The notes under the pieces: model-generated
Database searches by the model: none
The model's input: only the letters and a program-made list of their open reading frames with translations
What the model was told of the DNA's origin: nothing
Made by a program: the position numbers and the translations under genes
NCBI GenBank assembly: GCA_004293165.1
Contig: RDYL01000002.1
Span: forward strand, 744,001-808,000
Length of the DNA stretch: 64,000 bases
Direction of reading: 5' to 3'
DNA from: Flavobacteriia bacterium
Lineage (GTDB): Bacteria > Bacteroidota > Bacteroidia > Flavobacteriales > Flavobacteriaceae
Shown: in pieces, positions 751 to 55,215 of the stretch
Layout: each line of letters begins with the position of its first letter
Numbering within the stretch: position 1 is the first letter of the stretch

Positions 751-1491
751 TTATTCAAATAAATTGTTTTTTACTACACCTAATTGATGAAAAAAGTAAG
801 CTATCGAAACTCTTAAAACACCCAATCCATATATTATGCTTCTTTTAAAGTTGATTGAAGATGCTTCTTCAAAATACTTAGCTGGACAAGATATTTCTCC
901 TATTTTGGTTTTCTGGAAAATCAATTGGGCTAATAATTCATTATCAAATACAAAATCATCTGAATTTTTTTCGAAATTTATTTTTCTTAATACTTCTGCA
1001 TTGAAACAACGATAACCTGTGTGGTATTCAGATAGTTTTTGTTGTAATAAGATGTTTTGAATAAAAGTTAAAATGCGATTTGATATATATTTATACAAAG
1101 GCATACCACCTTGTAAAGCACCTTTTGATAAAATTCGTGAACCTAAAACAACATCAAAAGTTTGTTTGGTAATAAGTTCACACATGGCTGGAATTAACTT
1201 TGGAGTATATTGGTAATCAGGGTGAAGCATTATGATTATATCTGCCTCCAATTCTAGTGCTTTTTTATAGCACGTTTTTTGATTGGCTCCATATCCTTTG
1301 TTTTTTTGATGTTCAATAACATAGTCAATTCCAATTTTTTTTGCAATTTCAACGGTTTTGTCTTGACTGTAATCATCTGTTAAAATAACGGTATCCACAA
1401 TATGAAAAGGGATTTCTTCCACTGTTTTTTGAAGTGTTTTTTCTGCATTATAAGCAGGAAGAATAACTATTATTTTTCTATTATGGAGCAT
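751..1491 (-). CDS. GT2 family glycosyltransferase (dolichyl-phosphate-sugar synthase type)
   Basis: 246 residues. The N-terminal GT-A fold is clear: ILPAYNAEKTL at residues 10-20, TDDYSQD at 38-44 (nucleotide-binding acidic pair), HQKNKGYGAN around 61-70, and the HPDYQYTP segment near 90 that holds the metal-binding acid. This layout matches polyprenyl-phosphate mannosyl/glucosyl synthases and their relatives. The C-terminus has a hydrophobic stretch but no clear pair of membrane helices, so it probably acts at the inner face of the membrane. Its ATG overlaps the upstream TAA by one base (TAATG), which indicates translational coupling. The next gene downstream is GT87-like. The sugar and the lipid carrier cannot be read from the sequence. 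Confidence 0.85.
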   Translation of the reverse strand: MLHNRKIIVILPAYNAEKTLQKTVEEIPFHIVDTVILTDDYSQDKTVEIAKKIGIDYVIEHQKNKGYGANQKTCYKKALELEADIIIMLHPDYQYTPKLIPAMCELITKQTFDVVLGSRILSKGALQGGMPLYKYISNRILTFIQNILLQQKLSEYHTGYRCFNAEVLRKINFEKNSDDFVFDNELLAQLIFQKTKIGEISCPAKYFEEASSINFKRSIIYGLGVLRVSIAYFFHQLGVVKNNLFE

Positions 1492-2615
1492 TATTGTAAA
1501 TAATTGACTTCTTGATTGCTTTTTTCTCTAATATTTCCAGAAACTGGTATACTTTTTAGCGGAGCCAAATGTTCTTCATTTCTATGATACAATTCGCCTA
1601 AATAAACAAATTCATGATGCTGGTGTGTCTTGTAGTTTTTTAATTTAGTTTTGACTTGCATTTCAGACATGTTCCATTCTAAAGCTAATCGTTTAGCTGA
1701 TGGCTCCATAAAACTAGTATATAAAATTTCTGTAAACGTATGATCTTGGGTTTTTTTATAATTGATGTGATTTAATGTGTCTGTAACTTTTATTTTTAAA
1801 TCATTATTTATCTTTCTATAGGTTTCTAAAGTTTTTTGTAAGTCTTTTAATGATAAATACCCTTTTTTGTCTTTCTGGTCTGAAAACAAAGGTTGAATTG
1901 AAGATTCGTGGCACCAAATACATTTGGCAGGTTTTCCTGCATTTGAATGGTTGCTATCTGCGGCAATTTTTCGTTTTCCATTAGCATCGAAAATTCCAAA
2001 TCGAATTTGCCCATTTTTCATTAATTCAATGGTTTCGAATTCATAAACTTGACCCGTAATTGAATCAATTTCTTTTGAAATAAATAATTGATTAAATCTA
2101 TTTTGTTCTGAAAAACGAATGATACGATGCTCTTTTGAAACATCAGAATTGTTTATGTAAGCCTTCTCTGATTTTAAATTATAGTTTTTTGAAATGTCTT
2201 CTAATGACATAGGTGTTTCAGTTAACGCATAATAATGCTCTGATGATCCTAGTAGTAAAGAAATATATCTTCCAAGATCAATACTATGATTCGTTTTATA
2301 TTCTTCGGATTCTTTTATTTTTTGATGAATTTTTATAAGTGATTTTTCGGCATTTTTACTAAATCTCATTTTGGAAACATCAATGCGTAAATTTTCTTTA
2401 TCATTTTGTATGTTTTCTTTGTTTAAAATATTAGCTCCAACATATGATAAAGCCCATTTTAAGCCAATTATATTCTTCTCTATAGTATCTTTATTGTAAG
2501 CTTGGTTCCATTTTAAAAAAATGACACCTTCAGCCGAGTCTACCAAGAAAGAATTGTAACTATCTTTCCAGCTAATGAAGAGTAATAAAATCAATATAAA
2601 AATATTTTTTTTCAT
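1491..2615 (-). CDS. Exported protein with a single CxxCH heme-binding motif, unknown function
   Basis: 374 residues. A hydrophobic N-terminal stretch (residues about 4-16) looks like a signal peptide or membrane anchor. One CIWCH motif (Cys232, Cys235, His236) is a covalent heme c site and would need export to the periplasm. There is no second heme site and no recognisable peroxidase or classical cytochrome c fold, and the motif sits deep in the chain rather than near the N-terminus. I do not recognise the family. It is coupled to the GT2 gene by a TAATG overlap and lies 36 bases after a methyltransferase gene, so it belongs to the radical SAM/glycosyltransferase operon. A zinc or other metal role for CxxCH is possible. 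The function is open. Confidence 0.7.
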   Translation of the reverse strand: MKKNIFILILLLFISWKDSYNSFLVDSAEGVIFLKWNQAYNKDTIEKNIIGLKWALSYVGANILNKENIQNDKENLRIDVSKMRFSKNAEKSLIKIHQKIKESEEYKTNHSIDLGRYISLLLGSSEHYYALTETPMSLEDISKNYNLKSEKAYINNSDVSKEHRIIRFSEQNRFNQLFISKEIDSITGQVYEFETIELMKNGQIRFGIFDANGKRKIAADSNHSNAGKPAKCIWCHESSIQPLFSDQKDKKGYLSLKDLQKTLETYRKINNDLKIKVTDTLNHINYKKTQDHTFTEILYTSFMEPSAKRLALEWNMSEMQVKTKLKNYKTHQHHEFVYLGELYHRNEEHLAPLKSIPVSGNIREKSNQEVNYLQ

Positions 2616-2651
2616 TTCTGTTTTATAAATATACTAATTAAATTTAACTTG

Positions 2652-3449
2652 TTATTTTTTTAAAACTATAAGGTAACCAATTAAAAAATTACCTTTATTA
2701 GAAGTAATTTTCATTGCCTTTTTATATTTCACATTTTGTTTAATATATTCAAAATTCATTTTTGATGTAATGTATCCAATTAATGTAAAAAATTTTGATA
2801 ATTTTTGTTTGTATGATGTGTTTCTTATATGGTTTTTTGAAAAAGATAAAGTGTTAAGATTAATAGTCTTTTCAATAATGAAGCTTTTTTTTTTGAATAA
2901 TTGAATCCAATCGTTAATGTAAGGATATTTCTCATTTGATTGAATAATTCCAAAATTTGAAGTGCAAAAAATATTCATTTTTTTTATTTCATCAAGTGGA
3001 AAATTATCGCTCCAAATCCCTTCATTAATTATTAATTTTCCGTTTGGTTTTAATATTCGACATAGTTCTTCAATTTGTTTTTCCAAATCATCATTATCTT
3101 GTATAGCTAAAACTGATTCAATATATATTTTGTCAAAAAAATTTGTTTTAAATGGAAATGGAGCAGCCTTATTATTTAGTTGAAGTTCAACATTTTTTAT
3201 TTTACAAAATTTAAGCCTTTCCTTTGCTTTTTTAAGCATAAATGAATTACTGTCTAATCCAAAAAAATTTGTTTTTTCGTTTAAAGAACTAAAATACACC
3301 AATGTAGCTCCTGTTCCGAAACCAAATTCTAGAACATTTTCATTTTCTTTACATTCTAAATATTTTAATAATTCATTTGTTGCTTTTTTACCTTTTGGGT
3401 GAAGAAAAGCAGTGTTTGAATTACTGTAATGCTTTAATATACATTCCAT
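2652..3449 (-). CDS. Class I SAM-dependent methyltransferase
   Basis: 265 residues. Motif I is VLEFGFGTGATL (residues about 39-50). It is followed by an acidic post-I residue in FFGLDSNS and a KIYIESVLAIQD segment at the motif II position, which is the Rossmann methyltransferase order of the Methyltransf_11/25 type. The substrate is unknown. The ATG overlaps the stop of the upstream radical SAM gene by one base (TAATG), so the two are probably translated together. The C-terminal 90 residues are basic, rich in Lys and Phe, and carry no motif I recognise. It is the second methyltransferase of the operon and follows the second radical SAM enzyme, in the same order as the first pair. Confidence 0.85.
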   Translation of the reverse strand: MECILKHYSNSNTAFLHPKGKKATNELLKYLECKENENVLEFGFGTGATLVYFSSLNEKTNFFGLDSNSFMLKKAKERLKFCKIKNVELQLNNKAAPFPFKTNFFDKIYIESVLAIQDNDDLEKQIEELCRILKPNGKLIINEGIWSDNFPLDEIKKMNIFCTSNFGIIQSNEKYPYINDWIQLFKKKSFIIEKTINLNTLSFSKNHIRNTSYKQKLSKFFTLIGYITSKMNFEYIKQNVKYKKAMKITSNKGNFLIGYLIVLKK

Positions 3450-4813
3450 TAATTATACATTTTCATTAATCCACTAGCCGTAATTGACTTAATTTTATGT
3501 TTTATCTTATTTAGATAAGAATTGCTTCTACTCGCTTCAACTTCATTAACCAACTTACTAACGGCATATTTATAAAATTTTTTGGAGTAGGTTCGTTTAA
3601 AATCAATTTCTCTATCGGTTGATGATTCCCATTCGGGTTGAATTGTAATTTTATCTTCAATTTCATTATATAAACTTGTACCTTTTATTGGATATGCTAT
3701 AGTTATGGTATATTGTGTTGGCTTGGCCTCTTTTAAATATTGAATAGTTTTGTCAATGTCATCAATTGTTTCATCAGGATAGCCTAACATTACAAAAGTT
3801 CCAGTTTCGATACCGATAGCATTCGTGTTTTGAATCATTTTTTTAACGTGATTGATATCTACTCGTCTGTCCATCAAATCAATAATTTTTTGCGACCCAC
3901 TTTCGGCTCCAATCCAAATTCTAAAACAGCCTATTTCTTTTAAAAGTCGCAAAATTTCATCGTTTAAGCGTTCCGCTCTTGTAATGCATTCAAATGGAAT
4001 GATGGCATTTTGCTTTATTATTTCCGAATGAAATTCTGTTAACCATTTATGACTTATGGTAAAAACATCATCCACAAACCAAATAGCATCTGGATTATAT
4101 TTTTCTTTAAGCATTTTCATTTCTTCAACTACCAAATGAGTAGGTCTTCTTCTGTAACTTTGTCCATAAACCGCAGTACTACACCATTTACAAGTATAAG
4201 GACAACCACGTTGTGTAGAAATGGTCATGGAACTTTTTCCGTGATTATTTTTCCAAGTTTCCAAATACTTTTGCATGTAAATTGCCTCACGATTTGGCAA
4301 AGGCAATTCGTTTAATTCTTTAAATTTTGTTCTAGCTTCGGTTTGAATTACTTGATTGTTTTCTAAAAAAGCAATTCCGTAGATTTGATGAATATCTGAA
4401 TTATTAATTATAGCTTGATACAATTCAAAAGTTGTTTCCTCCCCTTCACCAATCACTAAAAAATCGGCTCCAGCTTTTAAATAATTTTCAACATTGTAGG
4501 TAACATCTGGACCGCCTAAAACTATTTTTGGAAAATTATACGTTTCAGTTTTTAGGATTTTCATCAATTTAATCACCTCTATTTTGGTCATTAAATTGGT
4601 ATAAATACATATTACTTTTGGTTTTTTTTCTAAGATAAACTCAAGTTGTGTGGTTTGATTAGAAAAAGTGGTGTCAAAAACATCATTACTAATATTTTTA
4701 CTTTTCAAATAACCAGAAACGTATAATAAACCCAATGGCGGATAGGGTTTCATTATCTTTTGTTCCTTAGGATCATCAGACAAATAATAAGCATGTGTAA
4801 AAAGAATACTCAT
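3449..4813 (-). CDS. Cobalamin-type radical SAM enzyme (second copy)
   Basis: 454 residues from ATG 4813. The frame is open to 4867, but 4813 is chosen because it gives an ATGA overlap with the upstream methyltransferase stop and the protein then begins MSILFTHAYYL like its neighbour. Residues 1-170 form the B12-binding-like Rossmann domain (PPLGLLYVSGYL, VLGGPD, VIGEGEET). The radical SAM core follows with GCPYTCKWC, the CxxxCxxC motif for the 4Fe-4S cluster, near residue 203, then the GAESGSQ and GYPDE motifs. I see no DxHxxG cobalt-ligand motif; many members of this class lack it. Such enzymes often methylate or rearrange unactivated carbon in lipids or natural products. It is a paralogue of the enzyme at 5570-7015. 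Confidence 0.87.
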   Translation of the reverse strand: MSILFTHAYYLSDDPKEQKIMKPYPPLGLLYVSGYLKSKNISNDVFDTTFSNQTTQLEFILEKKPKVICIYTNLMTKIEVIKLMKILKTETYNFPKIVLGGPDVTYNVENYLKAGADFLVIGEGEETTFELYQAIINNSDIHQIYGIAFLENNQVIQTEARTKFKELNELPLPNREAIYMQKYLETWKNNHGKSSMTISTQRGCPYTCKWCSTAVYGQSYRRRPTHLVVEEMKMLKEKYNPDAIWFVDDVFTISHKWLTEFHSEIIKQNAIIPFECITRAERLNDEILRLLKEIGCFRIWIGAESGSQKIIDLMDRRVDINHVKKMIQNTNAIGIETGTFVMLGYPDETIDDIDKTIQYLKEAKPTQYTITIAYPIKGTSLYNEIEDKITIQPEWESSTDREIDFKRTYSKKFYKYAVSKLVNEVEASRSNSYLNKIKHKIKSITASGLMKMYN

Positions 4814-13007: not shown

Positions 13008-13304
13008 ATGTCAAAATTTGGAGAACTTATCGATGCTCAAGTCCCTGTACTTATCGATTTTTTTACAGAGTGGAACGAACCTTCAGTAGCAATGAACGAA
13101 GTAATTCGTCATGTAGCAGCGGCTTTAGGAGATAAAGCGCGTGTAATTAAAATTGATGTGGATAAAAATCAGGAATTAGCCGATGCACTTCGTATTAAAG
13201 GGTTACCTACTTTAATGATTTATAAAGAAGGTCAAATGGTATGGAGACAAAGCGGTGAACTTGATGCAAATACGTTGATTTCGTTAGTGCAAGAACAAGC
13301 CTAA
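13008..13304 (+). CDS. Thioredoxin-fold protein without the CxxC active site
   Basis: 98 residues, the length of a thioredoxin domain. The fold is recognisable from LIDFFTEWNEPS at the active-site position, VIKIDVDKNQELADAL, and the cis-proline segment GLPTLMIYKEG. The usual WCGPC is replaced by WNEPS and the protein has no cysteine at all, so it cannot be a dithiol reductase. Related Cys-free thioredoxin-fold proteins act as scaffolds or chaperones; that role is inference. There is no signal peptide, so it is cytoplasmic. The 3' end overlaps the convergent deacetylase gene by 4 bases, and no terminator lies between them. Confidence 0.8.
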   Translation: MSKFGELIDAQVPVLIDFFTEWNEPSVAMNEVIRHVAAALGDKARVIKIDVDKNQELADALRIKGLPTLMIYKEGQMVWRQSGELDANTLISLVQEQA

Positions 13305-13939
13305 GAAATTACATCAAAAACAAACCCCCTATTTTTTAAAATTTGTATTGCTTTTGGTAACGCAAATTTCATTTTTTTTTCTGCTTTTAAGCTATCGTGA
13401 AATACGATAATGCTTCCTTGTACCGTATTTGAAATTACATTTTCCAGACATTTTTCTGCCGTAAGGGTTGAATCAAAATCATAACTCAAAACATCCCACA
13501 TGATTATTTTGTAACCGAACGCTCTAATTGCTTTCGATTGACTAGGCTTTATTTTTCCATAAGGAGGACGAAATAAAAAAAAGTGTTCAGTGTTCAGTTT
13601 TAAGTGTTCAGTTTCGCACAACTTGAAATTATTAATGTATTGATTAGTTTGGGTTTTCCAGCCGTTTAAATGATTGAAAGTGTGATTTCCTGTTTGATGT
13701 CCTTCAGACAAAATTCTTTTATAAACTTCAGGATGTTTTTTGATATTATCTCCAATACAGAAGAAAGTCGCTTTAATTCCCTCCGATTTTAAAAGATCTA
13801 AAACCCATTCAGTTACTTCAGGAATTGGGCCGTCATCAAACGTTAAATAGATTTTTTTATCTGAATTTGGAATATCCCAAACCAAATCAGTGAAAACCTT
13901 TTTTATAAAACTATTTGTTTTTACCCAATTGAAGTTCAT
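13301..13939 (-). CDS. Polysaccharide deacetylase (NodB/CDA1 family)
   Basis: 212 residues covering one NodB domain. Motif 1 is YLTFDDGP (catalytic and metal Asp), motif 2 is TGNHTFNH (the HxxxH-type metal ligands), motif 3 is FRPPYGK, motif 4 lies in MWDVLSYDF and motif 5 is IIVFHDS. The enzyme hydrolyses N-acetyl groups of peptidoglycan, chitin-like or other cell-surface sugars. No signal peptide is evident; the first residues are basic and aromatic. Just before motif 3 the protein carries a run encoded by a repeat-like DNA segment (13581-13613), probably a tolerated insertion. Its end overlaps the thioredoxin-fold gene by 4 bases. Confidence 0.88.
   Translation of the reverse strand: MNFNWVKTNSFIKKVFTDLVWDIPNSDKKIYLTFDDGPIPEVTEWVLDLLKSEGIKATFFCIGDNIKKHPEVYKRILSEGHQTGNHTFNHLNGWKTQTNQYINNFKLCETEHLKLNTEHFFLFRPPYGKIKPSQSKAIRAFGYKIIMWDVLSYDFDSTLTAEKCLENVISNTVQGSIIVFHDSLKAEKKMKFALPKAIQILKNRGFVFDVIS
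13581..13613. repeat. TGTTCAGT tandem-like repeat inside the deacetylase gene
   Basis: Three imperfect copies of AAGTGTTCAG in 33 bases. On the minus strand they read CTGAACACTT and encode a run around TEHLKLNTEHF just before the RPPYGK motif. The same ACTGAACACTTT string stands upstream of polA's 3' end near 8714. This looks like an intergenic repeat unit caught in a coding frame. Confidence 0.5.
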
Positions 13940-19039: not shown

Positions 19040-20281
19040 ATGGAGAATATTGCATTAATAGAATCGTTTTCAGAATTTAAAGACGACAAACTCATCGATA
19101 GAGTTACACTAATGGCAATTTTAGAGGATGTATTTAGAAATGCATTAAAAAAGAAATATGGTTCTGACGATAATTTTGATATCATTATTAATCCTGATAA
19201 AGGAGATATGGAGATATGGAGAAATCGTGTTGTCGTAGAAGATGGCGAAGTAGAAGATCCAAATTCTGAAATTTCATTAACTGAAGCAAGAAGAATTGAG
19301 CCTGATTTTGAAGTAGGCGAAGATGTTTCTGAAGAAGTAAAGTTGATTCAATTAGGAAGAAGAGCAATTTTGTCTTTACGTCAAAACTTAATTTCTAAGA
19401 TTCACGAACACGATAATACAAATCTTTATAAACAATTTAAAGACTTAATTGGAGATATTTATACAGCGGAAGTACACCATGTTCGGCCAAAAGCTGTAAT
19501 TTTGATGGATGATGAAGGAAATGAAATTGTTTTACCAAAAGAAAAACAAATTCCAAATGATTATTTCAAAAAAGGAGATAATGTTAGAGGTGTAATCGAA
19601 AATGTTGAATTGAAAGGTAACAAACCACAAATCATCATGTCTAGAACTGCTCCAGAATTCCTTGAGAAATTATTCGAACAAGAAATTCCTGAAGTGTTTG
19701 ATGGTTTAATTACAATCAAAAAAGTAGTTCGTATTCCTGGTGAAAAAGCAAAAGTAGCGGTAGATTCTTATGATGATAGAATTGATCCTGTTGGAGCTTG
19801 TGTAGGTATGAAAGGTTCCCGTATTCATGGAATTGTTCGTGAATTAGGCAACGAAAACATTGATGTTATTAATTATACAACCAATGCTCAATTGTATATT
19901 ACAAGAGCTTTAAGTCCTGCAAAAGTTTCTACAGTTAAAATTAATGAAGAGGCTAAAACGGCAGAAGTATTTTTGAAAATAGAAGAGGTGTCTAAAGCTA
20001 TTGGTAGAGGTGGGAATAACATTAAATTAGCTAGTTTATTAACAGGTTATGAAATTGATGTAATTAGAGAAGGCGCAATACAGGAGGAAGATGATGTTGA
20101 GTTAAGAGAATTCTCTGACGAAATTGAAGCTTGGGTTATTGAAGAATTTGAAAAAATCGGTTTAGATACAGCTAGAAGCGTATTAAATCAAGATGTTGAT
20201 GATTTGGTAAGAAGAACCGATCTTGAAGAGGAAACAATTTTAGATGTAATGAATATATTAAAAGAAGAATTAGAAGGATAA
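19040..20281 (+). CDS. nusA: Transcription termination/antitermination factor NusA
   Basis: 413 residues. The N-terminal RNA-polymerase-binding domain opens with LIESFSEFKDDKLIDRVTL, an S1 domain follows (DIYTAEVHHVRPKAVILM), then two KH domains, with GACVGMKGSRIHGIVREL and AIGRGGNNIKLASLLTGYEI. The end is a short acidic helical tail (DVDDLVRRTDLEEETI) and no pair of AR repeats as in E. coli, as usual for Bacteroidetes. It controls RNA polymerase pausing and termination. It lies between rimP and infB, and the leader hairpin upstream of rimP makes autoregulation plausible. Confidence 0.96.
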   Translation: MENIALIESFSEFKDDKLIDRVTLMAILEDVFRNALKKKYGSDDNFDIIINPDKGDMEIWRNRVVVEDGEVEDPNSEISLTEARRIEPDFEVGEDVSEEVKLIQLGRRAILSLRQNLISKIHEHDNTNLYKQFKDLIGDIYTAEVHHVRPKAVILMDDEGNEIVLPKEKQIPNDYFKKGDNVRGVIENVELKGNKPQIIMSRTAPEFLEKLFEQEIPEVFDGLITIKKVVRIPGEKAKVAVDSYDDRIDPVGACVGMKGSRIHGIVRELGNENIDVINYTTNAQLYITRALSPAKVSTVKINEEAKTAEVFLKIEEVSKAIGRGGNNIKLASLLTGYEIDVIREGAIQEEDDVELREFSDEIEAWVIEEFEKIGLDTARSVLNQDVDDLVRRTDLEEETILDVMNILKEELEG

Positions 20282-35326: not shown

Positions 35327-36349
35327 ATGAACGATAATTTGAATCCCAATAAAGAATCCTATACTCCGCAAGATATTGATATTGAAAAGGCATTGCGCCC
35401 ACTCAGTTTTGATGATTTTGCTGGTCAAGAGCAAGTATTAGAAAATCTAATTGTTTTTGTACAAGCGGCAAATTTGCGAAATGAAGCTTTAGATCATACC
35501 TTGTTTCACGGACCTCCAGGTTTGGGTAAAACTACGTTGGCAAATATCTTGGCAAACGAATTAGGAGTAGGAATCAAAATCACTTCAGGACCGGTTTTAG
35601 ATAAGCCGGGTGATTTAGCTGGATTATTGACCAATCTAGAAGAAAGAGATGTTTTATTTATTGATGAAATCCATCGTTTAAGCCCGATTGTGGAAGAATA
35701 TTTATATTCTGCAATGGAAGATTTCAAGATTGATATCATGATTGAATCGGGTCCAAATGCAAGAACGGTTCAAATCAATTTAAATCCATTTACTTTAGTT
35801 GGTGCAACTACTCGTTCTGGATTATTGACGGCTCCAATGCGTGCTCGTTTCGGAATTCAAAGTAGATTACAATATTACAATACCGAATTATTAACCACGA
35901 TTGTCCAACGTAGTTCTTCTATTTTAAAAATGCCAATAACAATGGAAGCTGCTATTGAAATCGCTGGCAGAAGTAGAGGAACACCTCGAATCGCCAATGC
36001 TTTGTTGCGTCGTGTTAGAGATTTTGCTCAAATCAAAGGAAACGGGAAAATCGATATAGAAATCGCAAAATTCGCCTTGAAAGCATTAAATGTGGATGCG
36101 CACGGATTAGATGAAATGGACAATAAAATTCTATTAACCATAATCGAAAAATTCAAAGGCGGACCAGTTGGATTATCAACATTAGCAACAGCAGTTTCCG
36201 AAAGTGGTGAAACCATTGAAGAAGTCTACGAGCCTTTCTTAATACAAGAAGGCTTTATCATGAGAACTCCAAGAGGAAGAGAAGTGACAGAAAAAGCCTA
36301 TAAGCATTTAGGGAAAATTAAAAATAACATTCAAGGAGGACTTTTTTAG
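35327..36349 (+). CDS. ruvB: Holliday junction branch migration ATPase RuvB
   Basis: 340 residues, full length. The AAA+ domain carries Walker [15 protein letters not shown] (about residue 62), Walker B LFIDEIHR, sensor 1 in [11 protein letters not shown], and the arginine finger region TAPMRARFG. The C-terminal winged helix ends [17 protein letters not shown]. It drives branch migration of recombination junctions with RuvA, which is encoded 5.5 kb downstream at 41904, so ruvA and ruvB are not adjacent. A repeat-flanked gene begins directly after its stop codon. Confidence 0.98.
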
Positions 36350-36356
36350 TGATGGG

Positions 36357-36797
36357 TGATGGATGTTTGATGATGGATGTTTCAAATTTTAAGAATAAAA
36401 TATATGAGTTTTAAGTTTGAAAAATTAATTATTTGGCAATTAGCAATGGATTTTGGGGAAGAAATTAATACTATAGCGAATTCTTTTCCTCAAATTGAAC
36501 GTTATAATTTATCTTCTCAAATTTTAAGAGCTGTTGATTCAATTGCATTAAACATTTCTGAAGGTTCCGTTGAACAAACTATACCTGAATTCAAGCGATT
36601 TCTAAATTATTCAATTCGTTCAATAGCTGAAGTTGTAACGTGTTTGCATAAAGCAAAAAGGAGAAATTACATAACTCAAGAGCAATTTGATTACTTGTAT
36701 GCTAAGTCATTCGAATTGATGAATAGAACTTTGGCTTTCAAAACGCAATTAAAATAAGTGATTCAGTCATCCATCATCCATCATCAGACATCCATCA
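36357..36797. mobile_element. Repeat-bounded unit with a four-helix-bundle gene
   Basis: Inverted repeats of 23 bases with one mismatch bound the unit: TGATGGATGTTTGATGATGG and three more bases at 36357-36379, and its complement at 36775-36797. The unit holds one gene (36404-36757) and sits exactly between the ruvB stop and the queG coding part. No transposase and no clear target-site duplication are seen. It looks like a cassette that depends on outside machinery, or a remnant. Confidence 0.5.
36404..36757 (+). CDS. Four-helix-bundle protein (S23/IVP-like)
   Basis: 117 residues from ATG 36404. The family pattern is plain: FEKLIIWQLAMDFGEEIN at the start, YNLSSQILRAVDSIALNISEG in the middle, FKRFLNYSIRSIAEVVTCL and a C-terminal helix. 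Such proteins are encoded in intervening sequences of some 23S rRNA genes and, in Bacteroidetes, in scattered intergenic sites; related Avd proteins assist diversity-generating retroelements. No reverse transcriptase or rRNA is nearby. It is bounded by inverted repeats and is likely the cargo of a mobile unit. The molecular role is unknown. Confidence 0.83.
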   Translation: MSFKFEKLIIWQLAMDFGEEINTIANSFPQIERYNLSSQILRAVDSIALNISEGSVEQTIPEFKRFLNYSIRSIAEVVTCLHKAKRRNYITQEQFDYLYAKSFELMNRTLAFKTQLK

Positions 36798-37690
36798 TAA
36801 AACAAGAAGCCCAACGCCTCGGCTTTTTGTCTTGTGGTATTTCCAAAGCTGGTTTTCTTGAAGAAGAAGCGCCTCGATTAGAAAATTGGTTAAACAATCA
36901 AATGAACGGTCAAATGAGTTATATGGAAAACCATTTTGACAAACGTTTAAATCCAACGCTTTTGGTAGATGATGCTAAAAGTGTGATTTCGTTATTATTG
37001 AATTATTATCCTTCCGAACTTCAAAATGAAGATTCGTATAAGATTTCCAAATACGCTTACGGACAAGATTACCATCATGTCATAAAAGAGAAATTAAAGG
37101 AATTGCTAAATTTCATTCAAACCGAAATTGGCGAAGTTTCTGGAAGAGCGTTTGTAGATTCGGCACCGGTTTTAGACAAAGCTTGGGCAGAAAAAAGTGG
37201 CTTGGGTTGGATTGGAAAAAATAGTAATCTTATCACCCAAAAAGTCGGTTCGTTCTATTTTATTGCAGAATTAATTATTGATTTGGAATTAGATTACGAT
37301 ACACCAACAACCGACCATTGTGGTTCTTGCACTGCTTGTTTGGATGCTTGTCCGACGGAAGCTATTGTGGCTCCGTATGTTGTAGATGGAAGCAAATGTA
37401 TTTCATATTTCACGATTGAATTGAAAGATAATTTACCACAAGAAATGAAAGGTAAATTTGATGATTGGATGTTTGGTTGCGATGTGTGCCAAGATGTTTG
37501 TCCGTGGAATCGTTTCTCAAAACCTCATAATGAACCGCTTTTTCAAGTGAATTCAGACATTTTAAATTTCTCAAAATCGGATTGGGAAGAAATTACGGTG
37601 GATACTTTTCAAAAAGTATTTAAAAATTCTGCTGTGAAACGAACCAAATATGAAGGCTTACTTCGTAACATTAATTTTTTAAAGAAATAA
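36758..37690 (+). CDS. queG: Epoxyqueuosine reductase QueG
   Basis: 310 residues if read from GTG 36758. Family motifs are [46 protein letters not shown], and the ferredoxin part [16 protein letters not shown] (from about residue 188) with [11 protein letters not shown]. It is a cobalamin-dependent iron-sulfur enzyme that makes queuosine in tRNA from epoxyqueuosine. The first 13 or so residues are encoded by the inverted repeat of the neighbouring unit, and no ATG precedes the conserved part. GTG 36758, which directly abuts the previous stop codon, is thus an acquired or uncertain start. Confidence 0.93.
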
Positions 37691-55162: not shown

Positions 55163-55177
55163 TAGTTTTAACGAATT

Positions 55178-55204
55178 TTCTAAATTCTAAATTCTAAATT
55201 CTAA
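55178..55204. repeat. 7-base microsatellite TTCTAAA, about 3.9 copies
   Basis: Three full copies of TTCTAAA and a partial fourth. It ends 12 bases before the -7 element of the heme O synthase operon and covers the place where the -33 box would lie. Confidence 0.8.
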
Positions 55205-55215
55205 TTTTCATATTG

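Follow-up and report, generated by a model that had tools for sequence, protein, structure and literature searches.

In REP/BIME-RAYT systems, the gene for a Y1 (HUH) transposase is flanked by inverted short repeats, gene-less hairpins are found elsewhere, and the type of repeat matches the clade of the protein. Heptamer repeats are also present in cyanobacteria, where they are called STRR. The four-helix bundle of PF05635 has, to our knowledge, no catalytic function. Genes of this S23/IVP family are already known from the intervening sequences (IVS) of rRNA, for example those of Coxiella and Leptospira, in which the S23 gene is paired with inverted borders. One account of these elements reports that rRNA IVS are cut by RNase III, describes the S23/IVP proteins as being without known function and gives the solved S23 homologue as a homopentamer (PMC4990558). 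Two further papers report heptamer arrays in bacteria and name no maker for them (PMC4692102, PMC4679880). These are the GGGAATC arrays of Xanthomonas, with 186 arrays and 70 convergent pairs in Xanthomonas campestris and with 70 and 75 convergent pairs in two genomes (PMC4692102), and the TAACTGA arrays of Beggiatoaceae, for which a post-transcriptional role has been proposed (MacGregor 2015, PMC4679880). The latter source also cites a report that, among long simple repeats, heptamers are the most frequent kind in most genomes (Mrazek 2007, cited in PMC4679880). The term S23 is absent from both texts.

Here we analysed a window of 64,000 nucleotides (the whole stretch of DNA under study) from the genome of a Flavobacteriia bacterium, which contains an S23 gene between ruvB and queG. 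Like rRNA IVS, this element has its S23/IVP gene between complementary borders, lies on a host transcript and is without a transposase, and its heptamer arms are of the same kind as those of an IVS in Azospirillum. Unlike rRNA IVS, it occupies the intergenic gap of an mRNA operon (an Rfam scan of the window identified one tRNA only, and the element is not in an rRNA gene), its arms consist of heptamers whose type matches the S23 clade, and the same genomes also contain arrays without a gene. In common with REP-RAYT systems as generally defined, S23 genes are flanked by a repeat and accompanied by gene-less hairpins of the same type. However, PF05635, and not the Y1 (HUH) transposase, is the only Pfam match of the window protein, and the arms, unlike REP, are arrays of 7-nt units without a fixed sequence. 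The repeats of Xanthomonas, Beggiatoaceae and STRR are likewise 7-nt intergenic arrays, and the convergent orientation of the Xanthomonas GGGAATC pairs is also seen in the S23-heptamer arrays. Based on the evidence below, we lean towards reading the locus as one representative of a widespread kind of element that rides in operons without a transposase and consists of an S23 gene between convergent heptamer arms, with gene-less satellites.

Layout of the element

The element starts directly 3' of the stop codon of ruvB (35327–36349 of the window, forward strand; TIGR00635, 7.5e-137), an ORF that also served as the tblastn anchor in related loci. The left arm (36350–36379, forward strand) is an array of degenerate TGATGGA heptamers with a G-rich coding strand, and the right arm (36763–36798, reverse strand) is an inverted heptamer array complementary to it. 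The S23/IVP four-helix-bundle gene (36404–36757, forward strand) encodes 117 aa, or 126 aa from an alternative start at 36377, and ends with the stop codon at 36755–36757. It is followed by queG (36758–37690, forward strand; TIGR00276, 6.3e-103), which has a GTG start.

A preliminary description of this DNA had noted 23-base inverted repeats with one mismatch, and the arms are indeed complementary at 22 of 23 bases (96%; 36357–36379 and 36775–36797, 395 nt apart), with a longer pairing of 39 nt at 77% (36341–36379 and 36768–36806). The arms are, however, arrays of approximately 7-nt units (TGATGGA) and not simple 23-mers. Their inverted-repeat score is 41; scores of at least 40 were found in 0 of 740 shifted windows and 0 of 2580 dinucleotide-shuffled flank pairs. 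In the predicted fold of the element transcript the arms are paired and closed (−107.9 kcal/mol, z −3.58), and the complementary borders would thus form a stem as expected of an IVS.

The assignment of a single S23/IVP-like gene placed tightly between ruvB and queG agrees with the profile matches. The protein matched PF05635 with an E value of 1.4e-29 (102.9 bits, against a curated cut-off of 33.8), which places it in the S23/IVP family, as well as TIGR02436 (95.9 bits, cut-off 24) and the sequence of XCC0516 (PDB 2gsc; E 8.4e-13). The S23 ORF is alone between the arms, with no transposase or recombinase ORF there, as the description of a small unit without a transposase had stated. The same gene and arms occupy this site in the same-species genome G138, and a DNA search of E. 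coli genomes gave no match. A reading of the gene as a phage or defence gene was rejected: it had no match in the "phages" collection, its best E value against PHROGs was only 0.026, and 0 families of the PADLOC defence models matched up to an E value of 0.1.

The two arms (as period-7 arrays, 36349–36379 and 36763–36794) are among five period-7/8 arrays in the 64 kb, compared with an average of 0.4 in five runs of an order-3 Markov control. Another of the five is inside an ORF (19197–19231). An AGTGTTC-type heptamer array with no S23 gene nearby (13580–13614, no strand assigned) is situated in the polysaccharide deacetylase ORF 13301–13939 (reverse strand), inside the deacetylase domain, where the frame stays open; it is possibly a satellite of another S23 clade. 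For a period-7 TAAATTC array in an intergenic gap (55172–55214, no strand assigned) we found no inverted partner, and its membership of this class of arrays is uncertain. Elsewhere in the same genome, TGATGGA-type arrays without S23 are present at C1:148170 and C1:403963, two of the seven other stretches inspected among 35 genome-wide TGATGGATG places, five of which are in the element. Another S23 gene of this genome (L039, G000:C1:537908) has an internal stop codon, and its counterpart in G138 is open.

The ruvB-queG site and the start of queG

The open frame of queG begins with the GTG at 36758, which abuts the S23 stop codon with 0 nt between them, and queG codons 1–15 (36758–36802) derive from the right arm, which supports an N-terminus encoded in frame by the right repeat. 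The same arrangement, with GTG 0 nt after the S23 stop and the frame running through the locus's own right arm into queG, was identified in L149, L150 and L151. In L055 (G032) the queG frame opens at an ATG 1 nt after the S23 stop and in L143 (G031) at an ATG 2 nt after it, in both cases through the own right arm, and an in-frame queG start is thus supplied by the right arm at three junction types. The native queG start, read by eye as TTG-ATA-AAC-AAT or near, is lost in several loci. L081 retains it within its open frame, in L088 a TTG located past the array was read by eye as the start, and no obvious queG start was seen in G088. The earlier proposal that the unit captured the expression of queG is upheld for the start codon, captured likewise in two other genomes with other arms, and the reading frames suggest the expression part.

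Among 30 ruvB-queG loci, six carry an S23 gene in the gap (G000, G138, G032, G028, G101 and G088), the one in G088 being unrelated to the others there, and in ten ruvB is directly followed by queG, including G012 with a 98% identical QueG. Such empty sites, which the preliminary description had suggested looking for, indicate insertion; that the unit moved in, as proposed there, would follow from this distribution. The gap of G113 contains a lone heptamer array, and three named Flavobacterium records and G031 are further carriers at this site. At ruvB-queG the element takes the place of about 34 nt of host sequence. By eye, no target-site duplication was seen there or at the L042 site, and no precise excision was found. 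Two more repeat-like types (GGCATTCCCTTCGGG... and CTGCTATCCGCTGTAT...-like; by eye) were observed in the ruvB-queG gap of other species (L072–L074, L076, L077 and L079, L080, L087); it resembles a hot spot for insertions.

In L151, which has its S23 allele at 2810–3250, the left arm and the 5' end of the gene resemble G032 and the rest resembles the window. This locus looks like an allelic recombinant or a mixed assembly; unit-by-unit conversion of one arm was dropped as an explanation, as the G032-like part takes in the 5' end of the gene with the left arm.

One alternative is a single old insertion at ruvB-queG that was inherited vertically with many losses, the arm differences and the start capture being drift without current mobility. 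In the S23 tree (128 rows, proteins of 90–180 aa), eight of the nine queG-site genes group together in a clade of 11 rows, and their arms, of the GGA[AT]G type, look related by eye; this and the recombinant-like appearance of L151 speak for such an insertion. The same clade nevertheless includes three genes from other sites (L144, L152 and L153), an unrelated S23 gene sits at the same site in G088, and elsewhere S23 genes are present or absent between genomes of one species. We consider an old, immobile insertion unlikely.

Such a difference within a species was identified at the L041 site, where G138, with flanks 98% identical, has no S23 gene and carries instead a short convergent hairpin of another heptamer (by eye). 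At the same site, gene-less hairpins of a third heptamer type are found in G012, G090 and G023 and a one-sided array of a fourth type in G032 (both by eye). The L042 element is common to G138, G023 and G032; at its site an array-free gap is present in G090 and other sequence in G012.

The presence of different heptamers at one site in close relatives would also fit movement or rewriting of the arrays by a reverse transcriptase, like that of diversity-generating retroelements with Avd. PMC10053308 describes Avd as homologous to PF05635, with a homologous four-helix fold. Unlike these retroelements, the window genome G000 (99.98% complete) gave no match in an RVT_1 profile search, and by the same profile reverse transcriptases are absent from 63 of 121 genus genomes, including the array-rich G120, G091, G101 and G033. 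An RVT_1 reverse transcriptase as a requirement is excluded by G000, and a role of such an enzyme in moving the arrays appears highly improbable.

Distribution of S23 genes with inverted heptamer arms

S23 genes were present in 47 of 60 genomes, the genome of the window included. The survey set comprised 131 distinct S23 genes, mostly from Flavobacterium, and 129 of these had at least 100 nt on both flanks; they come mainly from high-scoring places, with queG-site loci and 15 named loci added, and are not a random sample. To score the arms, we aligned each left flank locally to the reverse-complemented right flank (2 for a match, −3 for a mismatch, −6/−3 for gaps) and set a threshold of 26. 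Inverted arms scoring at least 26 were identified at 97 of the 129 genes, compared with 0.8% of 740 shifted windows from these loci and 1.4% of 2580 dinucleotide-shuffled flank pairs. The best unit was 7 nt alone in 63 of the 97 and 8 nt alone in 21, and a period of 7 at 17 or more of 24 matches was found for 56 of the 97 genes versus 3.8% of 498 control places. Among the 32 genes below the arm threshold, 18 are flanked by a period-7 array on one or both sides. In 9 of the 97 the left arm is C-richer. Exceptions to convergence are L175, with arrays in the same direction, L168, which also has direct arrays (both by eye), and the S23 gene of G065, with both flanking pattern-B matches (defined below) on one strand.

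The arms are not restricted to this genus. In a Bacteroidota-wide sample that included a few Flavobacterium genomes, 12 of 29 loci passed the strict threshold, versus 1.7% of 116 controls, and 23 of 29 did so if a one-sided period-7/8 array was counted, a looser count with no control of its own. Of 19 plasmid loci, which comprise 17 cyanobacterial ones (plasmid loci being all of the cyanobacterial S23 evidence here), one from Azospirillum and one from Gemmatimonadota and include two near-duplicate pairs, 13 passed. None of the five Clostridium, Ignavibacteria and WOR-3 loci, all within the 129, passed the threshold. The Azospirillum S23 gene is located within a 23S rRNA (RF02541 at 1283–4481, S23 match at 2501–2779) and has heptamer arms with a score of 47, which links these elements to the rRNA intervening sequences. 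S23 genes with heptamer arms thus recur in several phyla. The preliminary description had suggested looking for the repeats and gene at other sites. S23 genes with inverted arms of their own occupy many sites; TGATGGA arms together with S23 did not recur among the fetched loci. The gene is accordingly neither universal at one site in relatives nor confined to it, and the repeats are linked to it.

In three plasmid loci (L164, L168 and L173) the S23 gene lies inside a CRISPR operon and has inverted 7- or 8-nt arrays. The sites are between cas6 and cas4 in two type I-D operons and between cas10 and a cmr3-family gene in a type III-B operon. These S23 genes may be insertions and not CRISPR components.

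Both neighbours are on the S23 strand at 114 of the 129 genes (124 with both neighbours called), compared with 141 of 211 control triples (Fisher 6e-8); these controls were drawn from 20 S23 loci as well as the window, and some of them contain an S23 gene. The median gaps between S23 and its neighbours are 73 and 46 nt. From this sense placement inside operons, we infer that the S23 gene has no promoter of its own. The dN/dS values of S23 range from 0.024 to 0.10 in 17 pairs, one of 18 being saturated, and by this measure the protein is under strong purifying selection. Residues Q39, S46, N50, E53 and E76 (window numbering) are common to 97–100% of the 128 S23 rows of the tree.

Arm sequence follows the S23 clade

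Arm sharing was analysed among the 97 genes with arm scores of at least 26, using pairs from different genomes without homologous flanks and a score of at least 24 for shared arms. At S23 protein identities of 70% or more, arms were shared in 37 of 51 pairs; this fell to 15% of 73 pairs at 55–70% identity, 3.5% of 452 pairs at 45–55% and 0.7% of 3765 pairs below 45%, counts that are not independent since the pairs are related by descent. Within the same genome, arms were shared in 0 of 88 pairs with less than 45% identity. Based on these rates, the arm type follows the S23 protein and not the host or the site. For example, the heptamer type is AGTGTTC in L048 and TTAGACTTC in L014. Over all pairs, arm similarity correlates weakly with protein similarity (Spearman 0.12; the highest of 500 permutations reached 0.106), as the arm match is confined to close relatives. 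The arms of distant S23 proteins differ, and the element therefore does not have the family-constant terminal repeats of a transposon. An ordinary transposon was excluded on these grounds together with the lack of a transposase ORF. The distribution of gene and arms gives good support for their travelling together.

Gene-less arrays in the genus

The abundance of heptamer arrays was analysed in 121 genus genomes for two S23 clades, the two that were tested, using TTAGACTTCTTAGA as pattern A (clade A) and AGTGNTCAGTGNTCAG as pattern B (clade B). Clade memberships were read from match tables at an identity of approximately 60% or more and include some partial matches and one with stops. Pattern A was found in 54 of the 121 genomes and pattern B in 75; reversed-pattern controls gave 0 or 1 per genome, with the exceptions, for pattern B, of G060 (14) and G120 (36). 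Among the 29 genomes carrying a clade-A S23 gene, 25 contained pattern A (mean 11.5), versus 29 among the 92 others (mean 1.7; p 6.8e-10); pattern B was found in 37 of 43 genomes with clade B (mean 16.4) versus 38 of 78 lacking it (mean 2.9; p 3.7e-8), these and the following p-values ignoring the relatedness of the genomes. Against the presence of the other clade, the values were 0.18 for pattern A and 0.24 for pattern B. Because the raw counts include the arms of the S23 genes themselves, we also subtracted a fixed number of matches for each cognate S23 copy; among the matches listed, S23-bearing clusters have mostly two to four pattern matches and one has eight. The p-values for A and B became 6.4e-6 and 1.8e-4 after subtraction of three matches per copy, 1.9e-4 and 1.1e-3 after four, and 0.003 and 0.19 after eight. 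Genomes without the cognate clade can also be rich in arrays, with 38 copies of pattern A in G004 and 60 of pattern B in G063. With 121 matches to the clade-B heptamer dimer, G120 has the most of all genomes, alongside its 36 matches to the reversed control; it may hold a recent array expansion.

Among the matches listed, opposite-strand neighbours within 700 nt were convergent in 32 cases and divergent in 0, a tally that left out four single-hit pattern-B rows. Also among the matches listed, 25 of the 32 convergent pairs are not near a listed S23 gene, the B clusters counted here being those with more than one strand or an S23 gene nearby. We fetched 40 gene-less arrays, which are partly the same places as the 32 convergent pairs. 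None of the 40 lies within 1 kb of an S23 gene; 14 are accompanied by a convergent partner and 0 by a divergent one at a partner score of at least 26, and 4 lie inside ORFs.

That the arrays are ordinary simple repeats arising by slippage, in gaps that S23 genes tolerate or prefer, would account for the many period-7 arrays without S23 in these genomes, and it fits the cited prevalence of heptamers among the long simple repeats of most genomes (Mrazek 2007, cited in PMC4679880). Slippage, however, predicts neither the inverted pairing of both arms nor convergence without divergence, and it is disfavoured by arms that go with the S23 protein clade. We regard this explanation as very unlikely.

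Gene-less arrays hug stop and start codons, and those with both neighbours called lie between co-oriented genes in 30 of 35 cases, compared with 141 of 211 controls (p 0.028). Of these 30, 16 are in sense and 14 in antisense orientation, and the ratio is 7:12 without the arrays that have a convergent partner. An orientation-specific mRNA site was rejected as their role given the 16 to 14 split.

These positions are relevant to a further alternative, in which S23 is an RNA- or DNA-binding regulator, its arms are autoregulatory and the gene-less arrays are its regulon, the two co-evolving without mobility. The pairing of S23 clade and heptamer, the association of array abundance with the cognate clade and the placement next to stop and start codons are all consistent with such a regulator, as is the post-transcriptional role proposed for the TAACTGA arrays (MacGregor 2015, PMC4679880). 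On the other hand, the near-equal sense and antisense counts, the arrays inside ORFs, the accompaniment of the gene by its arms to unrelated sites and the different heptamer types at one site in close relatives speak against it, and a regulator without mobility appears rather unlikely to us.

Discussion

In the reading that we lean towards, that of a transposase-less element that rides in operons with its own convergent heptamer arms, S23 would act on its own heptamer. We hypothesise that the S23 gene would depend on a host promoter and that, in the transcript, the arms would pair to form a long stem like that of rRNA IVS, and RNase III may cut this stem, as it reportedly does in those sequences. 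The S23 protein would recognise its own heptamer array, either as RNA or as folded DNA, and would promote the spread or maintenance of this array as RAYT proteins do for REP hairpins, with strand transfer possibly provided by host replication or repair functions.

A more general proposal, which we put forward tentatively as a possibility, is that S23 proteins, acting with sequence specificity, generate, copy or move their own heptamer arrays and represent a new class of elements without a transposase, recombinase or reverse transcriptase of their own. Many of the unexplained heptamers of Bacteroidota and Cyanobacteria, and perhaps those of Xanthomonas and Beggiatoaceae, would then be gene-less satellites, and rRNA IVS would be the lineage of these elements that became established in rRNA. 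The solved S23 protein XCC0516 (PDB 2gsc) comes from Xanthomonas campestris, the same species as the GGGAATC arrays. In a plasmid search with a piece of XCC0516, no Xanthomonas was among the matches listed.

In the open-licence literature we found no description of heptamer arms of IVS and no paper linking S23 genes to heptamer arrays, which does not prove that none exists. Within that literature, the matched system of S23 clade and heptamer appears to be undescribed.

If each S23 clade owns a heptamer, orphan S23 proteins and orphan heptamer arrays would explain each other, and S23-heptamer elements would be a possible source of the heptamer repeats of bacteria. The S23 genes inside CRISPR operons would then also have another reading. 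The element in the window provides a concrete case in which a repeat array supplies the start of a housekeeping protein.
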